NCBI RefSeq assembly: GCF_945957265.1
Contig: NZ_CAMFKO010000018.1
Coordinates: 1-64,000, forward strand
Source of the DNA: an uncultured Dechloromonas sp.
Lineage (GTDB): Bacteria > Pseudomonadota > Gammaproteobacteria > Burkholderiales > Rhodocyclaceae
Direction: 5' to 3'
Length of the DNA: 64,000 bases
Part shown: positions 3,040 through 11,345 of the stretch, in pieces
Numbering within the stretch: the stretch's first letter is position 1
How the letters are laid out: the number at the start of each line of letters is the position of its first letter
Translations under genes and position numbers: made by a program
The notes under the pieces: generated by a model
What the model saw: the letters and a program-made list of their open reading frames with translations, nothing else
What the model was told of the DNA's origin: nothing
The model's database searches: none

Positions 3040-3465
3040 GCAAGACCGGTGTCTCCTCCTCAATTTCTCTAATTGAACCAATAGGTGTGATCTGGATATA
3101 CACGAAAGGAAGAGAGCAAACACCATGTTTCCTGGTACCGATGTGCGCTAGAACTACGAGTGAGGCCTTACTCCACTAGGTAACCCTTGTCGACCCCATC
3201 CATCTCGAACAAGTGCTCGGTGAGATAGTCTTGGGAGAGTGCCTGTAGAGAGCGGCTATCTAGCGCGTGTAGCTATAGACGACCGCTTGCCGAACGAATG
3301 AATCACCTCATCGCTGTTAGATACTCGGTTACCAGTGACAGCGTATTAACGGCAACATAGAGTGGGATTTCGGACTACATTTTGCTCTTCCTCGAGTGAT
3401 GGCTTCGGCCGAGTCTCTGCCCAGCAAGCCTCAAAAAACCCCAAAAAAAATAACTGCAAAAGGAC
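3040..3465. other. Non-coding, unassigned island sequence
   Basis: About 430 bp between cadR and the terminator of the outer membrane protein gene. It is AT-richer than the core genome and contains stops in all frames at short intervals. No start with a ribosome site, tRNA-like fold or terminal repeat was seen. On the minus strand 3275-3168 there is a short stop-to-stop stretch without a start codon that reads like ordinary protein, so decayed coding DNA is possible but unproven. Confidence 0.5.
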
Positions 3466-3485
3466 GAAGGGGCCGCAGCCCCTTC
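3466..3485 (-). terminator. Hairpin terminator of the outer membrane protein operon
   Basis: A perfect 8-bp stem (GAAGGGGC / GCCCCTTC) with a CGCA loop lies just past the stop of the minus-strand gene at 3510. On that strand it is followed by GTCCTTTT and, further on, by a run of eight T. Confidence 0.7.
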
Positions 3486-3509
3486 TCTCTATGCAGTACG
3501 TTGATCCTC

Positions 3510-4808
3510 CTACAAGCCGACCCGTACCCCTGCCATGACCATCCCGATATTGCCTTTTCCTAGCGCCGCATCGCTGCCGGACAGGAAGTAATGCTCATAG
3601 CCAAGCCGAGCCTCGATAGCCTTGGTCAGCTGATAGCCAATAACCAGCCCCGCCGTTGGGGAGAGCACCATCTTCTTCACCACTGAACTCTGTGCTGAAC
3701 CACCGACACCTGCGAAATCCAGGCTGTTGTAGATTTCATCCCGCGTGTGCACCGCCGCCAGACCCAGCTTCGGCTGGATGGTCAGGGATTTGATCGGTTC
3801 GAAGCGATAGCCGACGTTAGCCCCCAGAGCATTCGCCGTCCTTGTCGTTGCGCCAGTCAGGGCATTCCCACCACCGGTGATGCCATCGTTGGCACTGCGT
3901 GACTGGAACTCACCCAGCGTGGCCAGATACACCTCGTACTCGATGCTTCCCTCGTTCCGGAAGAGCGACAGGCGATAGGCCGTATCGGTCTTGTCGTCCG
4001 ACATGCCGCCGGCCACCTGGGCATTGACAGTATGGGTCTGTAGATTCCAGACATTGCCGTTGTAACCTCCGCCGCTCATGCGAGCCGAAGTTTTCGACCA
4101 ACCACCGGCCAAGCCCATCGACCATTTGCTACTCCCCCAATCCGTCTGGTTCGGTTTAGCGCCGAAGCTGTAGAGCAATCCCAAGGTAGTAATCGAGGCA
4201 TCCCGACGAATGGTGCCATTGTCGATGTTGTTGATGGTGTCGACGCTGGCGTGGTGGATCACGGTATGGTCGAGACGGACAGCCACAGCTTCGGTGACTT
4301 GGTACTCAAGACCGAGGCCGTAGATCGGCCGGACCACATCCGTGGTACTGGATTCGTTGTTCGGATTCTGGAACAACAAGCCCGGATCGTTCTTGTTTGC
4401 CTTCCGGTCCTGATGCCCATACATCAGACCGAGGCGAACATAGGGTGCAAAGCTGCCGATGCGATAGCTACCGAGAACGGAGAGACCCAGGCCTTCGAGA
4501 CGGGTCTTGCCGTCGACACTGGCGGTGCTGCCACCGCCAGTGACATAGCCGCTGATCTTGCGGGTACCCAAGTTCATGTAGCCCAGCTCGACGGCCAGGT
4601 AGTCATTGAGGCGTTCACCGACATAGAGGCCGACAGCCGTAGGTTTGTCTTTCTGTTGCGTGACATTGAGGGAATCCCATTCCATGTCGCGCAGGGTGAA
4701 ATCGCTGTAGTCGGCCTTCCCTGCACCGATGCCAACATAGGTTTGGGCCAGACCGGACAGCGGCAGGCAGGCGAGCGCCAGGAGGGCGCAGGTAGTCGGT
4801 GTTCTCAT
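3510..4808 (-). CDS. Outer membrane protein with two tandem OmpA-like beta-barrels
   Basis: A 432-residue envelope protein. A signal peptide (about residues 1-21, cleavage after SGLA) is followed by two barrel-like regions. The first (about 22-215) begins TYVGIGAGKADYSDF and ends LGLLYSF, a typical outer-membrane C-terminal strand ending in Phe. The second (about 224-432) begins WSMGLAGGWSK, repeats the alternating glycine/aromatic strand pattern and ends AGVRVGL. Usual proteins of this fold have one 8-strand barrel of about 200 residues, so this looks like a head-to-tail duplication or fusion. It is the last gene of an operon with two small membrane-associated proteins and an XRE-controlled promoter. 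The function is unknown; a surface-modifying role of the island is a guess. Confidence 0.75.
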   Translation of the reverse strand: MRTPTTCALLALACLPLSGLAQTYVGIGAGKADYSDFTLRDMEWDSLNVTQQKDKPTAVGLYVGERLNDYLAVELGYMNLGTRKISGYVTGGGSTASVDGKTRLEGLGLSVLGSYRIGSFAPYVRLGLMYGHQDRKANKNDPGLLFQNPNNESSTTDVVRPIYGLGLEYQVTEAVAVRLDHTVIHHASVDTINNIDNGTIRRDASITTLGLLYSFGAKPNQTDWGSSKWSMGLAGGWSKTSARMSGGGYNGNVWNLQTHTVNAQVAGGMSDDKTDTAYRLSLFRNEGSIEYEVYLATLGEFQSRSANDGITGGGNALTGATTRTANALGANVGYRFEPIKSLTIQPKLGLAAVHTRDEIYNSLDFAGVGGSAQSSVVKKMVLSPTAGLVIGYQLTKAIEARLGYEHYFLSGSDAALGKGNIGMVMAGVRVGL

Positions 4809-4875
4809 TTCTCTCCCTTAAGCATTTTGGTTATGTGATCCACTATCGGCCATACACGGCCGATACCGAATCGTT

Positions 4876-5214
4876 TCACTTCACGTATTTGACGGTGACC
4901 GTGCCGGCCAACTTGTTTTTGGCAATCTCGTAGTCAGGATTGAAGGTAGCGAGGTTGTGCAACCCGATACCGACCGCCGCCCCCAGCCCGACCACGGCAG
5001 CCGGACTGAAAGTCGCCGCCATCGCCGCAGAGCGGTATTCGGAATAGACACGGCATTTGAGATCCTGTTTTTCCAGTCGCCCTTCGATTTTTTCAACGAC
5101 AGCGCTGATGTTGGAAACGGCGACGACCTGGAACGACTCGTGGCGCATGGCCAGCGTGTCGAGCTTTTCCAGGGTGAGTTCGTCGGCGGTAAATTTCTGA
5201 ATATCAATCGACAT
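4876..5214 (-). CDS. Conserved-looking hypothetical protein with a central hydrophobic segment
   Basis: A 112-residue protein, not recognised. It has a polar N-terminal half (MSIDIQKFTADELTLEK..., about residues 1-58, mixed helix/strand), a glycine/alanine-rich hydrophobic stretch (about 61-87, containing AAVVGLGAAVGIGL) and a basic end. The ATG at 5214 was chosen over the longer frame from 5328 because AAAGGA sits directly upstream and the longer version would run through the preceding small gene. It lies 44 bp after the 47-aa gene and 67 bp before the barrel gene, all on one strand, which suggests one transcript. A peripheral or membrane-inserted envelope protein is the most that can be said. 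Confidence 0.65.
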   Translation of the reverse strand: MSIDIQKFTADELTLEKLDTLAMRHESFQVVAVSNISAVVEKIEGRLEKQDLKCRVYSEYRSAAMAATFSPAAVVGLGAAVGIGLHNLATFNPDYEIAKNKLAGTVTVKYVK

Positions 5215-5258
5215 GCATGGTCCTTTTGGTATGTGACGAGTAACTCGCCGATTACTGA

Positions 5259-5402
5259 TTACGGGGAAACGACCGGACCAGTGACACGGCCCTGCTGCTT
5301 CATCCATTTGCCGTAAGCCGCCACACAAACCGTGGTCAGAGCGCCGGCAACGAACGTGATGGCATAACTCGCGAGGGTTTCGAGAGGTGATGGGTTGTTC
5401 AT
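5259..5402 (-). CDS. Small single-span membrane peptide (47 aa)
   Basis: A 47-residue open frame that a length filter would miss. It starts MNNPSPLETLASYAITF, has one transmembrane helix (about residues 11-30), then a basic KWMKQQGR segment, and ends TGPVVSP before TAA at 5261-5259. AAAGGAA is placed correctly before the ATG at 5402. It is the first gene after the minus-strand promoter at 5503-5475, so it would be the leader gene of the operon with the 112-aa and barrel proteins. The topology looks like N-out/C-in. The function is unknown; a holin-like or regulatory peptide is possible but there is no direct support. Confidence 0.6.
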   Translation of the reverse strand: MNNPSPLETLASYAITFVAGALTTVCVAAYGKWMKQQGRVTGPVVSP

Positions 5403-5474
5403 CAGAGTTCCTTTAAGTTTTTGCGCGATGAGCAAACGTGATGCAGCACTTACTCTGCTGACATAGGCAAAGCG

Positions 5475-5526
5475 ATGCTAAGTATTCCTTAGTATCGTGT
5501 CAATTAAGAAACTAAGAATCTCTTAG
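5475..5526. promoter_or_regulatory. Divergent promoter with two CTAAG-N5-CTTAG operators
   Basis: Two perfect dyads, CTAAG-N5-CTTAG, lie at 5478-5492 and 5512-5526 with centres 34 bp apart. On the minus strand, TTGACA (5503-5498), a 17-bp spacer and TAGCAT (5480-5475) make a good sigma-70 promoter, and the first dyad covers its spacer and -10. The second dyad covers a weaker plus-strand TTAGTA-18-TAAGAA promoter for the XRE gene. This is the layout of a repressor controlling itself and the divergent operon. Confidence 0.75.
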
Positions 5527-5549
5527 GTCAAATCTGGGCCTTGGGATTC

Positions 5550-5882
5550 ATGAATCAATCGACGTATTTCGCACGACGTTTGCGAGAAGCCCGTCAGAAA
5601 AGCGGCCTCTCGCAAAAGGCGCTGGGGATCAAAGCAGGCATTGATCAATTCAGTGCTAGTCCGCGCATGAATCAGTATGAAAAGGGCAAGCACCTACCTG
5701 ATTTGCTAACGGTCGAGCATCTGGCAAACGCAACAGGTGTTCCCATTCCGTTCTTTTTCACACCAGAGGACGAGCTTGCAGAATTGATTGCAGCTTGGGG
5801 GCAATTGGAAGCAAATCAGCGGACGTCACTGCTTGAGGCTGCAAAACAACTCCTGCCTATCCCAACACCGCCAGAGCCTTAG
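5550..5882 (+). CDS. XRE-family helix-turn-helix regulator
   Basis: A 110-residue DNA-binding protein. The N-terminal HTH_3/XRE fold spans about residues 8-65 (RLREARQKSGLSQKALG ... NQYEKGKHLPD), and the short C-terminal helical part (about 72-105) is probably for dimerisation. The ATG at 5550 gives the usual XRE length; a TTG at 5541 would add three residues, and neither has a strong ribosome site. It is divergent from the 47-aa/112-aa/barrel operon, and the two palindromes in between are its likely binding sites. Its 3' end overlaps the convergent metal-binding gene by 26 bp. A phage-type peptidase domain (as in S24 repressors) is absent, so control is probably not by self-cleavage. Confidence 0.85.
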   Translation: MNQSTYFARRLREARQKSGLSQKALGIKAGIDQFSASPRMNQYEKGKHLPDLLTVEHLANATGVPIPFFFTPEDELAELIAAWGQLEANQRTSLLEAAKQLLPIPTPPEP

Positions 5883-6756
5883 CCTCTAGTTTCTGCCCCA
5901 GCGTCTTGTTCATTGGCGTATCTGGAATTGTAGAAGCTGCCGAAGGATCGGCATCCGGAGTAGAAGAGAAGAACTCCTCCACTACTGCGCCTCCGTCTTC
6001 CTCTCCCTCTTCAAACGCCCCATTTCCCAGACCCAGCTTGGCTACTTGATCCAAGGCTTCCTGATCAAACCCAGCCAGCCGGCGTGCTTCATCTAGTTGC
6101 TTGGCCTGCCCCAGCATTTCTTCCGTCGACAACCCTGTCTGCGGCGTGATATCCACGTAGTAGATCGGTGTCCCCAAGCTCTGCCGCGTCGATTTCCCAC
6201 GCAAGCGCAGTTCCAGCGCCAAGCAGGAAAGCTTGTTTCCCGAGATTGCCTGGAAATATTGCAGCCGTGCACTCAGCGTCCGAATACTGTTGAACCCTGT
6301 GGTTCGGAATACGAAGCTCCCAAGCGGATCATCATCACCCAACGCGACATTCAAGCGTCCGTAGGGTTTACAACCGCCCTTTGCCAGCGGACAAGCATCC
6401 GGTGACGAGCATGGAAACGACCTGATGCCCTCTTCCGTCTGGCGCTTGCAGTTCTGTCCATCGCCGACACAGAGTGGCCGCCCCGTCGTCCGATCAAACA
6501 AGCTGTACTCGGCCCGGAAGTTGAGATAGGGATCGTTGAACAACAAGCGGATCGGAATATTGCGAATCTTGCCGCCCTGTTCCTTGCGCAGGTTTTCATC
6601 CAGCGGGTGCGGCAACCAGCCATCCTTGTTCTGAACCTGGCTGGTGATGGTGAATTGATCGTCCTTCTCTGGCAGACGTTTGCCGTTCTTCTCCACCACC
6701 TTGCCGATGGAGATTCGTCCCAGTACGGGCGGTGTAATGGCGAGACCTTTCAACAT
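5857..6756 (-). CDS. Cys-rich phage/ICE-type protein ('hydrolase or metal-binding' family)
   Basis: A 299-residue protein of a type found in integrative elements next to YqaJ and DUF932 genes and usually named only 'hydrolase or metal-binding protein'. The N-terminal part (LGRISIGKVVEKNGKRLPEK, about residues 12-31) is followed by a Cys cluster (C96, C103, C116, C122, C129) fit for a zinc site, then an Asp/Glu-rich tail. The layout is reminiscent of the Gp3-like recombination directionality factors of serine-integrase phages, but I give this low weight. The ATG at 6756 follows CAGGAG, itself directly after a terminator-like hairpin (6772-6818). It is the last gene of the recombination module and its end overlaps the XRE gene. 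Confidence 0.6.
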   Translation of the reverse strand: MLKGLAITPPVLGRISIGKVVEKNGKRLPEKDDQFTITSQVQNKDGWLPHPLDENLRKEQGGKIRNIPIRLLFNDPYLNFRAEYSLFDRTTGRPLCVGDGQNCKRQTEEGIRSFPCSSPDACPLAKGGCKPYGRLNVALGDDDPLGSFVFRTTGFNSIRTLSARLQYFQAISGNKLSCLALELRLRGKSTRQSLGTPIYYVDITPQTGLSTEEMLGQAKQLDEARRLAGFDQEALDQVAKLGLGNGAFEEGEEDGGAVVEEFFSSTPDADPSAASTIPDTPMNKTLGQKLEAKALAVLG

Positions 6757-6771
6757 ATCGGTGACTCCTGT

Positions 6772-6818
6772 AAAAAATGCCTTCCGCCTGCACCGCTGGG
6801 GTGGCAGGTCGGGAAGGC
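6772..6818 (-). terminator. Intercistronic terminator-like hairpin upstream of the metal-binding gene
   Basis: The outer stem GCCTTCC/GGAAGGC (6779-6785 with 6812-6818) encloses a second stem, CCTGCACC with GGTGGCAGG carrying one bulge. On the minus strand it is followed by ATTTTTT and then at once by the CAGGAG ribosome site of the gene starting at 6756. It could end transcription after yqaJ or attenuate the last gene. Confidence 0.65.
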
Positions 6819-6848
6819 TGATTGCGTTGATTAAGTGGCTTGTGTGGT

Positions 6849-7856
6849 TCAGGCGACTAGGAAGCGCCGACTACCCGGTTTGCTCATGGCGTACTGCTGC
6901 TGGAATTCGGGGTGATCCTTGAGGAGGCCCGTGACATCGAGCACCACGCTATCCTTGGCTTTCTTCCAGGTGACGCTGCCGGTTTCGAAGTTCGCTCTCG
7001 TGGCACTGCCCATGGCTTGCTGCAGGCTTTGCTTGAGTTGCGCCTCCAGCTTCTCGGCCTCGGCGATGCTTTGCCGAACCGACAGCCAATCGGCGAAGGT
7101 GGCCGACAGGTTGCGCTCCTCTGTGAAATCGAGGGTCTGGCCATCGTCTGCCGGATAGAGGCAACGTAGCGCCAAGTCAGCCGATTCACTGCCATCGGCC
7201 GGTGGCGGCGTATCGCTCTCGACGTAGTGCCAGAAGTGCCGTTCGAGTTCGATCAATCGGGTAATCAAACGCTCATCGCGTTCGACCCGATGGATTTCGA
7301 GGTGTTGTCCACCAAGCAATACGGCCACATCGGCGGCTTGCTTGCCGGTGACGGCCAGCTGGTGCATGACCTGGAGTTGAACGTATTCAGGTACGCCGTC
7401 CTTCCAGAGCTTTACACCGTTGATACCGGCGGTCTTGCATTCGAGGATTTGTACCTCGCTGGAACCGGTGACTTCGCGGTCAATGTTGGCCAGCATCCAG
7501 GGCAGGCTGGGATCGGGATGCTGCAGGACGGCATTGATGCGCCGCACCCGATTGCCGGTGCGTTTGGTGTAGTGCGCTGCGACGATTGGTTCGAGTATGT
7601 TCCCCCAGTACATTGGGGACTCTTCATCGTGCGGATCGGCCTTGGGAAGATTGCCATCACGACCGGTCTTCTCCATCCACAGTTCGAGTTGGCTCTTGTA
7701 GGGGTTCAAGCCGACGGCTGTTGCTGCATCCGAACTACCGATGCCTTGCTTGCGAACGGCCAGCCAATCCTCGCGTGGCAGTTCCTTGGTCTTGACCAGT
7801 TTGAGTGCCGGACGATGCTTGAGCGGACTGGCACTAGGTAAAGCGAGTGATTGCAT
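6849..7856 (-). CDS. YqaJ-family viral recombinase / exonuclease
   Basis: A 335-residue lambda-exonuclease-like nuclease. It carries the family signature GIGSSDAATAVGLNPYKS (about residues 38-55), GNILEPIV (85-92) and an acidic core with Asp126 (ANIDR) and ECK at 139-141, the D...ExK metal site of PD-(D/E)XK nucleases. The C-terminal third is helical and includes a Glu/Lys/Gln-rich segment. The ATG at 7856 follows AAGGAG and starts MQSLALPS; a longer frame to 7880 lacks a ribosome site. In phages and ICEs such enzymes resect DNA ends for annealing-type recombination, usually with a RecT/Bet partner, and none is seen in the window. The neighbours are DUF932 upstream and the Cys-rich protein downstream. 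Confidence 0.88.
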   Translation of the reverse strand: MQSLALPSASPLKHRPALKLVKTKELPREDWLAVRKQGIGSSDAATAVGLNPYKSQLELWMEKTGRDGNLPKADPHDEESPMYWGNILEPIVAAHYTKRTGNRVRRINAVLQHPDPSLPWMLANIDREVTGSSEVQILECKTAGINGVKLWKDGVPEYVQLQVMHQLAVTGKQAADVAVLLGGQHLEIHRVERDERLITRLIELERHFWHYVESDTPPPADGSESADLALRCLYPADDGQTLDFTEERNLSATFADWLSVRQSIAEAEKLEAQLKQSLQQAMGSATRANFETGSVTWKKAKDSVVLDVTGLLKDHPEFQQQYAMSKPGSRRFLVA

Positions 7857-7878
7857 GCTGTTACTCCTTCCAGAAAGC

Positions 7879-7914
7879 AAAATGCCCAGTCCGCCAATAA
7901 GCGGAACTGGGCAT
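7879..7914 (-). terminator. Intercistronic terminator-like hairpin upstream of yqaJ-type gene
   Basis: ATGCCCAGT (7882-7890) pairs with ACTGGGCAT (7906-7914), extended by CCGC/GCGG with one bulged A and a 6-base loop. On the minus strand it is followed by a short T run, then by the AAGGAG site of the gene starting at 7856. The same arrangement recurs at 6772-6818. Confidence 0.6.
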
Positions 7915-7954
7915 GTACGAGGTATGAATGATGAAACGCGGATTCAGGCAATGA

Positions 7955-8923
7955 TCAGGCGACAAGTTGCAGGGCCGTATCGAGAGCGCGTTGTTTGAGG
8001 ACAGCCCCCTGGCCGAACCAGGCGGAGTCCATGCGGTACTCGGTGCTGCGAGCACGGCGTTCATGATCGACGTACTCGGTGACGGCATTGAGCAGCCCCC
8101 AAGCAGTGCCCTTGGCTGCTTCCAACTCAGCTCCCTTACCTTGGCCGTCGTAGAGGGCTTGTACCCGCTTCAGGGCACGTTCGTTGGCGAGCCCAGCCGG
8201 ATCGATAGCTCCTGGCTGGACATCGCACATCACGCGCAGGAAGTAGTTCATAGCCTCGTGCGACTTCACTTTGCGTTCGGCCAAGGTACGCATGCGATAC
8301 ATAAAGCTGTCATATTGGGAGACAGCGATACCGAGTTGCTGTTTGACCGCTTGCGGATCGAAACGGGTGCTGTGCGGTACCTTGATGGCCTGGCTGGCAC
8401 CATTTACGGCGATGGTCAGTGTGTTATTGCAGACGACACGGACGGTCGTGGGGGTTGCCGTGGTGGCGAGGGTGCCGTCACACGACGTGGCTAACAATAG
8501 GTAGCCCTCTACTTGGTCGTTACCCTTCAAGGCAGTGGATTGACCGGTCTTGGCCAGCGCCCAGAATTTCTTGCCACCTTTCAATACACCGGCCGTCTCC
8601 AGCCGGTAGCCGGAAACGTCGGTGAGATCACGATAGAACTCCAACACCTCCTTGGGTTGAACGACCTGATAGCGCTGCGAAACGACCGACAGGGCTTCCT
8701 TGGTATCCGAGCGATAGAGCACCTTCTGATCTTCGAAGGAATGGATGATGCCGAGACTGCCAATGCTGTCAGCCATGAAACGGACCGGGGATTCCTGGAT
8801 GGTCCAGTCCATGCCGGCAGATTTAGCCCAGACTTCGATGGGTTGTTTGGCCGGAAGACGATTGCCGAGGCCATGCCACGGTTCGGCGCCGACATAGGCC
8901 ATTTGTTGGACGAGGTGTGCCAT
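7955..8923 (-). CDS. DUF932 domain protein (phage/plasmid-related)
   Basis: A 322-residue protein of the DUF932 family (phage/plasmid-like proteins, also modelled as TIGR03299). It has the typical start MAHLVQQMAYVGAEPWHGLG, a central region VVQPKEVLEFYRDLTD and the RVVCNNTLTIA segment around residues 155-165. The ATG at 8923 follows GAAAGGAAA; the longer frame to 9055 has no ribosome site. The family's molecular role is unknown. Its steady association with YqaJ-type nucleases in mobile elements, repeated here, suggests a part in single-strand annealing or DNA processing, but this is inference. Confidence 0.87.
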   Translation of the reverse strand: MAHLVQQMAYVGAEPWHGLGNRLPAKQPIEVWAKSAGMDWTIQESPVRFMADSIGSLGIIHSFEDQKVLYRSDTKEALSVVSQRYQVVQPKEVLEFYRDLTDVSGYRLETAGVLKGGKKFWALAKTGQSTALKGNDQVEGYLLLATSCDGTLATTATPTTVRVVCNNTLTIAVNGASQAIKVPHSTRFDPQAVKQQLGIAVSQYDSFMYRMRTLAERKVKSHEAMNYFLRVMCDVQPGAIDPAGLANERALKRVQALYDGQGKGAELEAAKGTAWGLLNAVTEYVDHERRARSTEYRMDSAWFGQGAVLKQRALDTALQLVA

Positions 8924-9060
8924 GAGATTTCCTTTCGGGAATGAATGCGCGCAGCCGCTCAACCGGATGCACGGCAGAGACGGGAGGCGTTGAATGAATG
9001 GGAGGAAAGACGAGAACTGCGATGCCGTCCATTGCAGACGGCAGAGGTCAACCAAGCCGA

Positions 9061-9408
9061 TCAGTACGTGGTCGACTCGGGTGCGGTGAGGCTAAAACAG
9101 TGGCCGCAAGCAAGGCAGCGGTAGTTATCGAGGATGCGACGGTCGACGAGTTCGCCCAATCGGGCACCGGACAGGCCACCGGCCGTGCCGCCGACCACGG
9201 CGCCGAAGAGCGCACCGAGGACACCGCCGAAGAGCATGCCTGGCGGACCGGCGACGAGGCCGACGGTCATGCCAATTTCGATACCAGACAGGCTACCGGT
9301 AGCGCCACCGACACAGCCGCCAACCGTGCCGATCAGGCCGGCAGTCTTACGGGCGCGATTGCGGGTGGTGATACGTGCAGAGTGACAGTTTGGGCATTGA
9401 TTGTTCAT
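9061..9408 (-). CDS. Glycine-zipper membrane protein with a split zinc ribbon
   Basis: A 115-residue protein. It begins MNNQCPNCHS (C5, C8) and ends near YRCLACGHCF (C98, C101, extra C104). Between the two CxxC halves lie about 65 residues of glycine-zipper sequence (GLIGTVGGCVGG ... GALFGAVVGGTAGG), likely two membrane-crossing hairpin helices. If the halves pair, a single zinc ribbon would be closed by the membrane segment. The ATG at 9408 follows CAGGAGT. It is the first gene of the minus-strand DUF932/YqaJ group, 137 bp upstream of DUF932, with a 7-bp hairpin (9023-9043) in the gap. Not a family I can name; the function is unknown. Confidence 0.7.
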   Translation of the reverse strand: MNNQCPNCHSARITTRNRARKTAGLIGTVGGCVGGATGSLSGIEIGMTVGLVAGPPGMLFGGVLGALFGAVVGGTAGGLSGARLGELVDRRILDNYRCLACGHCFSLTAPESTTY

Positions 9409-9793
9409 TGTCTGACTCCTGTAGATGGAAAGGACGAACGAAATCAACGAATACCATTTCTGGCACTCGCTGATTTAAACGTAATGAGGAGTTAGGTACA
9501 GAGCCAGATGCTTGATTCTGGCTAATCTGCCATGTTTTGCGGCAGACGATCACCTTCTCAAGGAGGTGATATGTGACTGAAAAATTCTGAAATCTCTACC
9601 TACTCTCATAACGAGTGAGCGTAAAAATCTCAATTGGCCGAAGTTGACGTTCGCTCTTGCCAAATCATCAACACAAGTGCCCAATATCAAATAATCAAGA
9701 CCTGCAATTTAACCAGCACTACTACGAGCACAGTCAAAGTAGTTTTCCTTCTCATTCAAGAAGCTTTGAATAACAACATAGGAGCAAGCAGAA
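9409..9793. other. AT-rich intergenic region with a hairpin enclosing a Shine-Dalgarno sequence
   Basis: This 385-bp gap separates the recombination module (minus) from the small glycine-zipper gene (plus). At 9551-9572 a 9-bp hairpin (ATCACCTTC / GGAGGTGAT, loop TCAA, one G-T pair) encloses AAGGAGGTGAT, a full match to the 16S rRNA anti-Shine-Dalgarno. The next codons are ATG TGA (9573-9578), so no protein can follow. A second dyad, TTCAA-N6-TTGAA, lies at 9755-9770 just ahead of the downstream gene. No longer open frame with a ribosome site was seen. Confidence 0.6.
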
Positions 9794-10042
9794 ATGAGCA
9801 ACGAAGCAAACGCCACAAAAGCAGGAGTTATAGGTGCAACCGCCGGTTCTGCTGGCGCAGTGGGTACAGTGGCCGCAGCAGGAACCGTTACTGGCCTGAG
9901 TGCTACAGGGATAACGTCTGGATTGGCCGCAGTTGGATCAGTCGTTGGAGGCGGCATGGCAGCTGGACTTGCAATAACTGCAGCAATTCCTGTTGTAGCA
10001 GGGGTGGCAGCATATGGCATATTCAAGTGGATCAAGAAATAG
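9794..10042 (+). CDS. Small glycine/alanine-rich hydrophobic protein (82 aa)
   Basis: An 82-residue protein starting MSNEANATKAGVIGATAG, made almost wholly of Gly/Ala/Val/Thr in glycine-zipper spacing (about residues 10-75), likely two membrane helices, with the basic end FKWIKK. AGGAGC precedes the ATG at good distance. It sits alone between the integrase (convergent) and a long AT-rich leader. The composition resembles bacteriocin-like and holin-like peptides and general glycine-zipper membrane proteins, and no immunity partner is visible. Function unknown; I regard it as a real gene because of the ribosome site and the clean composition. Confidence 0.65.
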   Translation: MSNEANATKAGVIGATAGSAGAVGTVAAAGTVTGLSATGITSGLAAVGSVVGGGMAAGLAITAAIPVVAGVAAYGIFKWIKK

Positions 10043-10067
10043 AGCCCCCAAGCGTCTCCACGCAACG

Positions 10068-11345
10068 TTAAACCTGTGCGGCCTTTTTCTTCATGGGAAC
10101 TACGTTGTAATCAGTTTTTCCCGCCTCCAGAGCCGATAGCACCTTTGCCCACTTGCAAAGAGCATCCTTTCTCTCATCAAAATAATCGTGGCGGTTGTAG
10201 ATTCCCTCCACGCCTTTGATTTTGTGATTGAGGCAGCGCTCAGCAACGAATGGATCGACACCCAACGCAGCCAAATGTGTTCGTGCCGTACGCCGGAAAT
10301 CGTGAATTGTGAAATTTTCGACATCCTTCAGCTTCGGCCGTATATGTTTAGCTAGCGCTGCGTTTAGCGTGTTCAAATCAATATGCGGGATCATCCGATG
10401 CTGCATCTTGCGAGCAGGAAATACATATTTGCTGCCGTTGGCCAAGCGATGCAACTCTTTGAGCGTTTCTAAAGCCATCGGTGGTAACGGTATATCGATC
10501 GCAGCGCTTGTCTTGGTTCTTTCCTCTGGTAAGTGCCAGATTGCCTTATCCAAGTCGAACTCTGCCCAAGGGGCTGCGACAAGTTCCTCCTTCCGGACCG
10601 CAAGTAACAATAGCAACCGAATCGCATACAGATTCTCAATTGAGAAGCTTCCCAGCATGTCACGCATAGCAGCAAAAAGCTTGATGATTTCTTCGCTGGT
10701 CAGCCAACGTTCACGGCTTTCTTCTTTCCCGCCAGCGTCTGAAGGGTCAAATGCACTTGCCGGATTGTTTTCTACGATGTGCCGCTTAATGGCGAAGTTG
10801 AAAATTCGCTTCGTCCAACGTAACACATCGTTTGCGACCGTTGGTGCGCCACGTTTAACGATAGCCTGCAACATGTCGTCAATATCACGGGGCTTAACAT
10901 CTTCGGCTTTCATCTTGCCAAGCTTGGGCTTGATATCATTTTCAATGCGGCGACGAACAATGTCCGCATGCTTCCACTTGGGCAAAATAACCCGCTCATA
11001 AAACTGATCGCAGAGTTGATTGACCGTCCAGGCAGCTTTCTCTGCTTCAATCTTCTCAATGGCCTCGCGTTTTCTCTCCTGCTTTTCGCCAGCGACATCA
11101 TGCCCAAGGGCAACTTTTGCAGAAAGTTCACGTGCTGTTTCGCGAGCTTTAGCCAACGACAAAGAGGCGAAGCTCCCCATGCTCATGATGCGTTGCTTGC
11201 CGGCAAAGCGATATCGAAACTTCCATACAGGGGAGCTGGCGCTGGCTGGAAAGCATAGATAGAGGCCATCACCATCGGATCGACCTTCAAAGCGCTCCCC
11301 GTTTCTGATCCAGGCACGTATTTGTATATCCGTTAGCTTACCCAT
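10068..11345 (-). CDS. Tyrosine-type site-specific integrase (P4-like)
   Basis: A 425-residue integrase. The N-terminal arm-binding domain (about residues 1-95, GDGLYLCFPA ... KARETARELSAKVALG, DUF4102 type) is followed by a core-binding SAM-like domain (about 105-200) and the catalytic domain. Catalytic residues visible are Arg in LLAVRKEEL, His and Arg in HDFRRTARTHL, the second His in CLNHKIKG and, nine residues after it, the nucleophile Tyr in GIYNRHD. All are present, so it is probably active. It faces away from yicC, its start lying toward the presumed attachment site at 11.74-11.9 kb. The start overlaps by 13 bp the end of a separate arm-domain gene, suggesting coupled translation. Confidence 0.93.
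   Translation of the reverse strand: MGKLTDIQIRAWIRNGERFEGRSDGDGLYLCFPASASSPVWKFRYRFAGKQRIMSMGSFASLSLAKARETARELSAKVALGHDVAGEKQERKREAIEKIEAEKAAWTVNQLCDQFYERVILPKWKHADIVRRRIENDIKPKLGKMKAEDVKPRDIDDMLQAIVKRGAPTVANDVLRWTKRIFNFAIKRHIVENNPASAFDPSDAGGKEESRERWLTSEEIIKLFAAMRDMLGSFSIENLYAIRLLLLLAVRKEELVAAPWAEFDLDKAIWHLPEERTKTSAAIDIPLPPMALETLKELHRLANGSKYVFPARKMQHRMIPHIDLNTLNAALAKHIRPKLKDVENFTIHDFRRTARTHLAALGVDPFVAERCLNHKIKGVEGIYNRHDYFDERKDALCKWAKVLSALEAGKTDYNVVPMKKKAAQV

Follow-up and report, generated by a model that had tools for sequence, protein, structure and literature searches.

A predicted orphan C.Csp231I-type regulator and its paired operators beside a membrane and exported protein operon on a Dechloromonas island

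Genes and regulatory sites at the locus

The window analyzed here is the whole 64,000-nucleotide stretch of DNA, in which a gene for an XRE regulator stands divergently from three genes encoding a 47-aa membrane peptide (p47), a 112-aa protein (p112) and a double-barrel outer-membrane protein (OMP). These gene calls, first made in a sequence-only reading, hold (Table 1); the interval singled out in that reading, 5259-5526, covers p47 and the regulatory dyads only, the XRE gene and the remainder of the operon lying outside it. The OMP matched OmpA_membrane (PF01389) over residues 22-217 (E = 1.9e-24), and its second half matched, instead of a C-terminal peptidoglycan-binding domain, Autotransporter (PF03797), with a best stretch at residues 202-418 (E = 3.3e-8). 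Thus, it shares the transmembrane barrel of OmpA but not the peptidoglycan-binding domain, and it scored 58.6 bits against the NCBIfam porin OmpA model, which has a cut-off of 277. In the p112 model a small alpha/beta fold was seen, its hydrophobic stretch at residues ~62-86 being predicted with low confidence; structural matches were only middling, and sequence searches with p112 returned no solved relative and no consistent family match. Relatives of p112 were found at 56 loci in the genome collection. A distant one (L003, 2714-3067, ~40-47% identity), annotated as hypothetical, is carried on a 4.5-kb mobilizable plasmid, and p112-related proteins appeared in 251 plasmid records, 231 of them from Escherichia.

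Table 1. Positions of the genes and predicted regulatory features in the window.
Feature	Position	Strand	Remarks
Terminator-like hairpin after the OMP gene	3466-3485	-	weak: 4 in region vs shuffle mean of 2.8
OMP, 432 aa	3510-4808	-	OmpA-like and autotransporter-like barrels; exchangeable cargo; in at least 5/57 p112 loci (some cut by contig ends)
p112, 112 aa	4876-5214	-	alpha/beta protein; model mean pLDDT 73.3
p47, 47 aa	5259-5402	-	one hydrophobic TM-like segment; in at least 8/57 p112 loci (some cut by contig ends)
Regulator block (operators, promoters, XRE)	5403-5875	.	replaced en bloc in the second copy of the island
Predicted divergent promoter of the p47 operon, TTGACA-17-TAGCAT	5475-5503	-	-35 at 5503-5498, -10 at 5480-5475; 10/12 matches
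Putative distal operator (OL-like), CTAAGTATTCCTTAG	5478-5492	.	overlaps divergent promoter; same in L016-L019 and L027, spacer changed in L076
Inter-operator spacer, 19 bp	5493-5511	.	contains divergent -35
Putative proximal operator (OR-like), CTAAGAATCTCTTAG	5512-5526	.	arms kept and spacer changed in L027 and L076
XRE regulator, 110 aa, C.Csp231I-type controller protein	5550-5882	+	recognition helix SASPRMNQYEKGK; assigned by phmmer, profile and PADLOC
Island neighbours: Gp3/RDF-like, YqaJ exonuclease, DUF932, zinc-ribbon glycine-rich protein	5857-9408	-	

The two perfect CTAAG-N5-CTTAG dyads that had been reported in the divergent gap between XRE and the operon were confirmed. They had been described as identical palindromes, which is accurate for the arms, perfect in both, but not for the 5-bp spacers, which differ. 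The exact pattern occurs twice in the window, while 100 shuffles averaged 0.00, and these two dyads are its only exact occurrences in the whole genome (4,015,849 bases), in which a reversed-pattern control gave 3 sites. The best of three promoter-like sites in 3300-5900 (shuffle mean 1.6) was the divergent TTGACA-17-TAGCAT, and the claim that one dyad covers its spacer and -10 was borne out, as 12 of the 17 spacer bases and half of the -10 hexamer (3 of 6) fall within the distal dyad. No good promoter for XRE was found in 3300-5900: CTAAGA is present at 5512-5517, with no convincing -10. The proximal operator begins with this CTAAGA, which is described as the -35 of the C.Csp231I promoter (PMC4824078). 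Controllers of the C.Csp231I type have a promoter of their own with its -35 in the proximal operator, from which a leaderless transcript is made.

The XRE protein alone matched C.Csp231I (PDB 3lfp) by phmmer with an E value of 2.1e-25 over residues 8-92, a segment that includes the HTH and the C-terminal helices; a profile of XRE and 13 relatives matched C.Csp231I at 1.6e-40, and PADLOC assigned XRE to Control_protein (E = 2.9e-26). For C.Csp231I, the published binding sites are a pair of CTAAG-N5-CTTAG sequences upstream of the C gene, separated by 18 bp (PMC4321490, PMC3115060); at its own promoter the distal site reportedly serves activation and the proximal site repression (PMC4321490, PMC3115060, PMC4824078). 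Residues R34 and Q37 of C.Csp231I correspond to R39 and Q42 of the window XRE, while A33 corresponds to P38, a position at which Pro is common in many dyad-bearing relatives; replacing A33, R34 and Q37 together in C.Csp231I reportedly abolished DNA binding (PMC4824078). The sigma-contact motif is SQE in C.Csp231I versus SQK in XRE, and the Glu is also missing from most of the dyad-bearing relatives compared. Self-activation may therefore be lost in XRE, and this single change would favor repression over self-activation; in the SQE variant reported for C.Csp231I, all three residues were replaced and DNA binding was lost too (PMC4824078). Scanning of 10 neighbouring proteins (3510-11345) revealed no methyltransferase or restriction nuclease domain, so that the linked methyltransferase and endonuclease genes of a restriction-modification (R-M) controller in the strict sense were absent among these neighbours. 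Judging by homology and site, we take XRE for an orphan controller of the C.Csp231I type: regulator and site are of a known kind, unlike the target genes. The sequence-only reading had not recognized the unit as a described system, and this has to be revised for the regulator and the site, as both match the characterized C.Csp231I class.

Recognition helix, dyads and divergent genes among homologues

We compared recognition helices and upstream sites in 46 homologues that were gathered by protein alone, with the dyads left unused. Searches in 369 genomes of the class contributed 18 new loci and those in 396 genomes of the phylum 28, the latter giving 53 matches of which 21 without a locus were left out; the search profile was built from 14 sequences, most of them dyad-bearing. 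A perfect dyad was located ≤130 bp upstream of 25 of the 30 homologues with NQYE, which carries the recognition-helix Gln, versus 0 of the 16 others (Fisher P = 2e-8, relatedness uncorrected). The NQYE homologues with no perfect dyad within 130 bp were L107, L108, L110, L147 and L149 (5/30), among which L108 has two dyads farther upstream and L147 a one-mismatch site. One-mismatch sites were also seen in 2 of the 16 non-NQYE homologues, L129 and L133, which have a common site, ATAAGTAAAACTTAG, at -53. Both belong to an NHYE sister group (L095, L150, L151, L155, L106, L129, L133, L139 and L142-L144) that is devoid of perfect dyads, and a further member, L155, adjoins ThiF and multiubiquitin genes. 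Among 9 plasmid homologues, a perfect dyad was present in 3 of 4 with NQYE (L094 being the exception) and in 0 of 5 others, counts likewise uncorrected for relatedness.

Across 399 genomes of the order, searches for the dyads themselves, with a free gap and a total span of 39-69 bp, found pairs in 6 (this genome among them) and none with the reversed control. All six spans were 48 or 49 bp, and a family XRE adjoined the pair in every case. In viral contigs, a 49-bp span was found in 3 of 12 dyad-pair stretches, all three of which adjoin a family XRE (stretch L084 is cut, and its XRE is visible in L121, the same contig re-fetched); the other 9, with different spans, showed no family XRE in the fetched stretches. 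The spacing within the operator pairs compared was 18-20 bp. Both the gene order and the dyads recur in relatives of the window: XRE and both dyads are intact in L016-L019 and L027 (XRE identity 94-100%) and in L076 (68%), and the dyad arms are perfect while spacers and flanks vary. Altogether, homology to C.Csp231I, co-variation of helix and dyad, and conservation in relatives support the earlier proposal that XRE acts through the two dyads. If the helix rule is true, the recognition-helix Gln predicts CTAAG-N5-CTTAG and the targets of many uncharacterized XRE genes could be read from sequence, which would tie a characterized restriction-system regulator and its operator to a large set of such genes.

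The divergent promoter is kept in L027 and L076. More widely, TTG stands exactly 11 nt before the distal dyad, on the strand facing away from XRE, in 8 of 22 non-redundant spacers, with controls of 0-3 at each of the other 13 offsets (3 to 16) and 0-3 on the opposite strand; a -35 placed there is spaced 17 bp from a TAG-N3 hexamer at the dyad end. The phased divergent TTG, a candidate -35, was missing from the other 14 of the 22 spacers.

The divergent genes at 37 loci with family XREs fell into 22 groups, of which 9 look exported or membrane-inserted, 9 do not and 4 are unclear, as sorted by hand from lipobox patterns and reading, with no signal-peptide predictor. Exported-looking groups include a TM-like peptide, lipoproteins, an ankyrin lipoprotein and secreted nuclease homologues; for the nuclease group, the frame was clear in four loci and Pfam confirmed both of the two proteins sent, the others being grouped by their like regulators. 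We regard this sorting as no more than a lead.

Exchange of the regulator block and cargo

A second copy of the island is present in the same genome, on contig C17 (L009, L011), in which p112 is 97% identical, p47 and the island genes are kept, and both the regulator block and the cargo are replaced. DNA similarity to L011 and to L020 stops at 5402, the p47 start, and resumes at 5876; downstream, similarity to the second copy (L011) and L020 ends at the p112 stop, 4878. The replacement regulator had C.AhdI as its best PDB match (E = 7.1e-15) and was likewise assigned to Control_protein by PADLOC. Furthermore, another exported protein takes the OMP position in L009/L011, L020, L022 and L076/L166, and in L076/L166 the regulator class and dyads of the window are joined to the other type of cargo. 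The fixed envelope operon that had been supposed is thus not supported: just 5 of the 57 p112 loci showed the OMP (a lower bound), and other exported proteins replace it. Ordinary XREs occur at the p112 loci L022 and L060, so a controller-type regulator is not obligatory there. From these sequence comparisons, the p47-p112 pair is constant in this clade, and the regulator block and cargo are exchangeable.

The repeats GGGTCGTAAAT..GGTCGT..ACGATT are conserved before the C.AhdI-like regulator at four loci (L009 upstream of 2093, L020, L044 and L062) and are likely its operator; GACT-N3-AGTC, allowing ≤1 mismatch, was absent from the 160 bases before the C.AhdI-like gene at all four.

The island setting proposed for the unit is supported by sequence (Table 1), and the RDF-like gene has four copies in the genome. 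Two more RDF-like/YqaJ/DUF932 sets lie in the same genome (G000, C1 108748-109623 and C11 96551-97432; L162 and L163). The XRE-p47-p112 block was not present in the 14-kb stretches around these sets, so it looks accessory to them. L011, L016-L019 and L027 remain similar in DNA to the window up to 9592-9594, L020 only up to 9396. A short inverted repeat of the type ATCACCTTCTC..AAGGTGAT lies beside the 9592-9594 end (L011 12954), and together the boundary and the repeat may mark a recombination or insertion end.

Proposed control of the operon and comparison with known systems

We consider it fairly likely that the orphan C.Csp231I-type XRE acts as a self-winding entry timer that shuts p47-p112-OMP via the distal dyad. 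An XRE dimer would occupy each CTAAG-N5-CTTAG site. As the divergent promoter encloses the distal site, occupancy of that site should exclude RNA polymerase and turn the operon off, and the proximal site, at the XRE gene's own promoter, would limit XRE synthesis, both by analogy with C proteins. In a newly entered cell devoid of XRE, the operon would be expressed at first and shut off once XRE had accumulated, as in zygotic induction. The basis of this reading is homology, the operators and their geometry, helix/operator co-variation and exchange of the regulator block, from which we infer binding, the direction of control and the timer.

The dyads could instead serve the XRE promoter only, as in C.Csp231I, making XRE a plain autorepressor and leaving the divergent operon constitutive or read from elsewhere. 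Paired operators upstream of the C gene are indeed the reported layout of C.Csp231I autoregulation (PMC4824078), and lack of the phased TTG in most spacers agrees with it. We nevertheless hold this to be unlikely, as the region's best promoter-like site is divergent, overlaps the distal dyad and is kept in L027 and L076, and upstream of p47 the regulator block is exchanged in its entirety. A different alternative, closer to the sequence-only reading, is a surface-remodelling switch in which an inducer or anti-repressor lifts XRE off the dyads and the cell surface changes. It would suit an operon encoding a TM-like peptide and an outer-membrane protein, as well as the exported or membrane-targeted look of ~9 of the 22 divergent-gene groups beside such XREs, as sorted by hand. 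No sensor domain was recognized in the 110-aa XRE, however, the C.Csp231I match spanning residues 8-92, and at other loci unrelated exported proteins stand in for the OMP; a signal-responsive switch therefore seems quite improbable, and the description of the unit as switchable is not supported, no sensor domain having been recognized.

It might also be argued that XRE survives in decayed form from a lost R-M system and came to lie beside p47 by accident, since the family includes true R-M controllers and no R-M domain was found in the 10 neighbouring proteins scanned. The intact XRE and dyads in L016-L019, L027 and L076, with arms that stay perfect as spacers and flanks vary, speak against this explanation, and we give it hardly any weight. 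Thus, we favor the entry timer over a signal-responsive switch, and read the locus as a restriction-type timer co-opted for membrane and exported proteins: a circuit that shields a new host from a restriction enzyme would be reused to time such proteins at entry. Whether this extends further is much more speculative. Orphan restriction-type controllers might form a wide class of mobile-element entry timers, giving the newly entered cell a pulse of envelope or exported proteins such as lipoproteins, secreted nucleases and OMPs; C.Csp231I-like and C.AhdI-like regulators are exchanged as a promoter-operator-regulator block before the same p47-p112 core, so selection would keep the timer rather than a particular regulator. 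We advance this tentatively, and consider it somewhat doubtful.

The closest characterized relatives of XRE are C.Csp231I and C.EcoO109I, which are of the same family (PDB 3lfp, 3lis, 4jcx, 4jcy and 4jqd for C.Csp231I). C.Csp231I and XRE both have the helix R and Q and two CTAAG-N5-CTTAG sites upstream of the gene, with spacers of 18 and 19 bp, respectively. However, C.Csp231I belongs to an R-M system and has SQE, whereas XRE has SQK and stands beside a divergent membrane and exported protein operon, with no R-M genes found. For the replacement regulator of the second island copy, C.AhdI is the nearest structure, and no R-M linkage was seen beside that allele. In predicted promoter layout, the locus resembles that of the Kpn2I controller protein, which reportedly represses an overlapping divergent methyltransferase promoter (PMC12707154); there, unlike here, the target belongs to a real R-M system. 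BswR of Pseudomonas aeruginosa is, like XRE, an XRE protein apart from R-M genes, and its fold is reportedly closest to C.Csp231I (PMC3985676), so that the likeness is one of published fold; its reported site, ACCCGGCGTTCGCCGGGT, and its chromosomal small-RNA target (PMC3985676) are different. In the literature searched, which took in few subscription papers, we found no account of such a regulator being used for membrane and exported proteins, nor of two controller classes changing places at a single island.

C.Csp231I-like regulators outside restriction systems are, as reported, already known from BswR (by structural likeness) and from I-F3b CRISPR-associated transposons, the Xre proteins of which cluster with C.Csp231I (PMC12452197). 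A plasmid XRE of Aeromonas salmonicida (L154, 2480-2809) lies beside TniB and TniQ and has dyads at -78 and -44, in line with this reported link. The I-F3b Xre (RtbC) resembles the window XRE in being C.Csp231I-like on a mobile element apart from R-M, but regulates transposition, whereas neither a transposon gene nor a CRISPR gene turned up in the window neighbours scanned. Zygotic induction has been reported for I-F3 elements (PMC11406308), and the entry timing proposed here for p47-p112-OMP would be akin to it.
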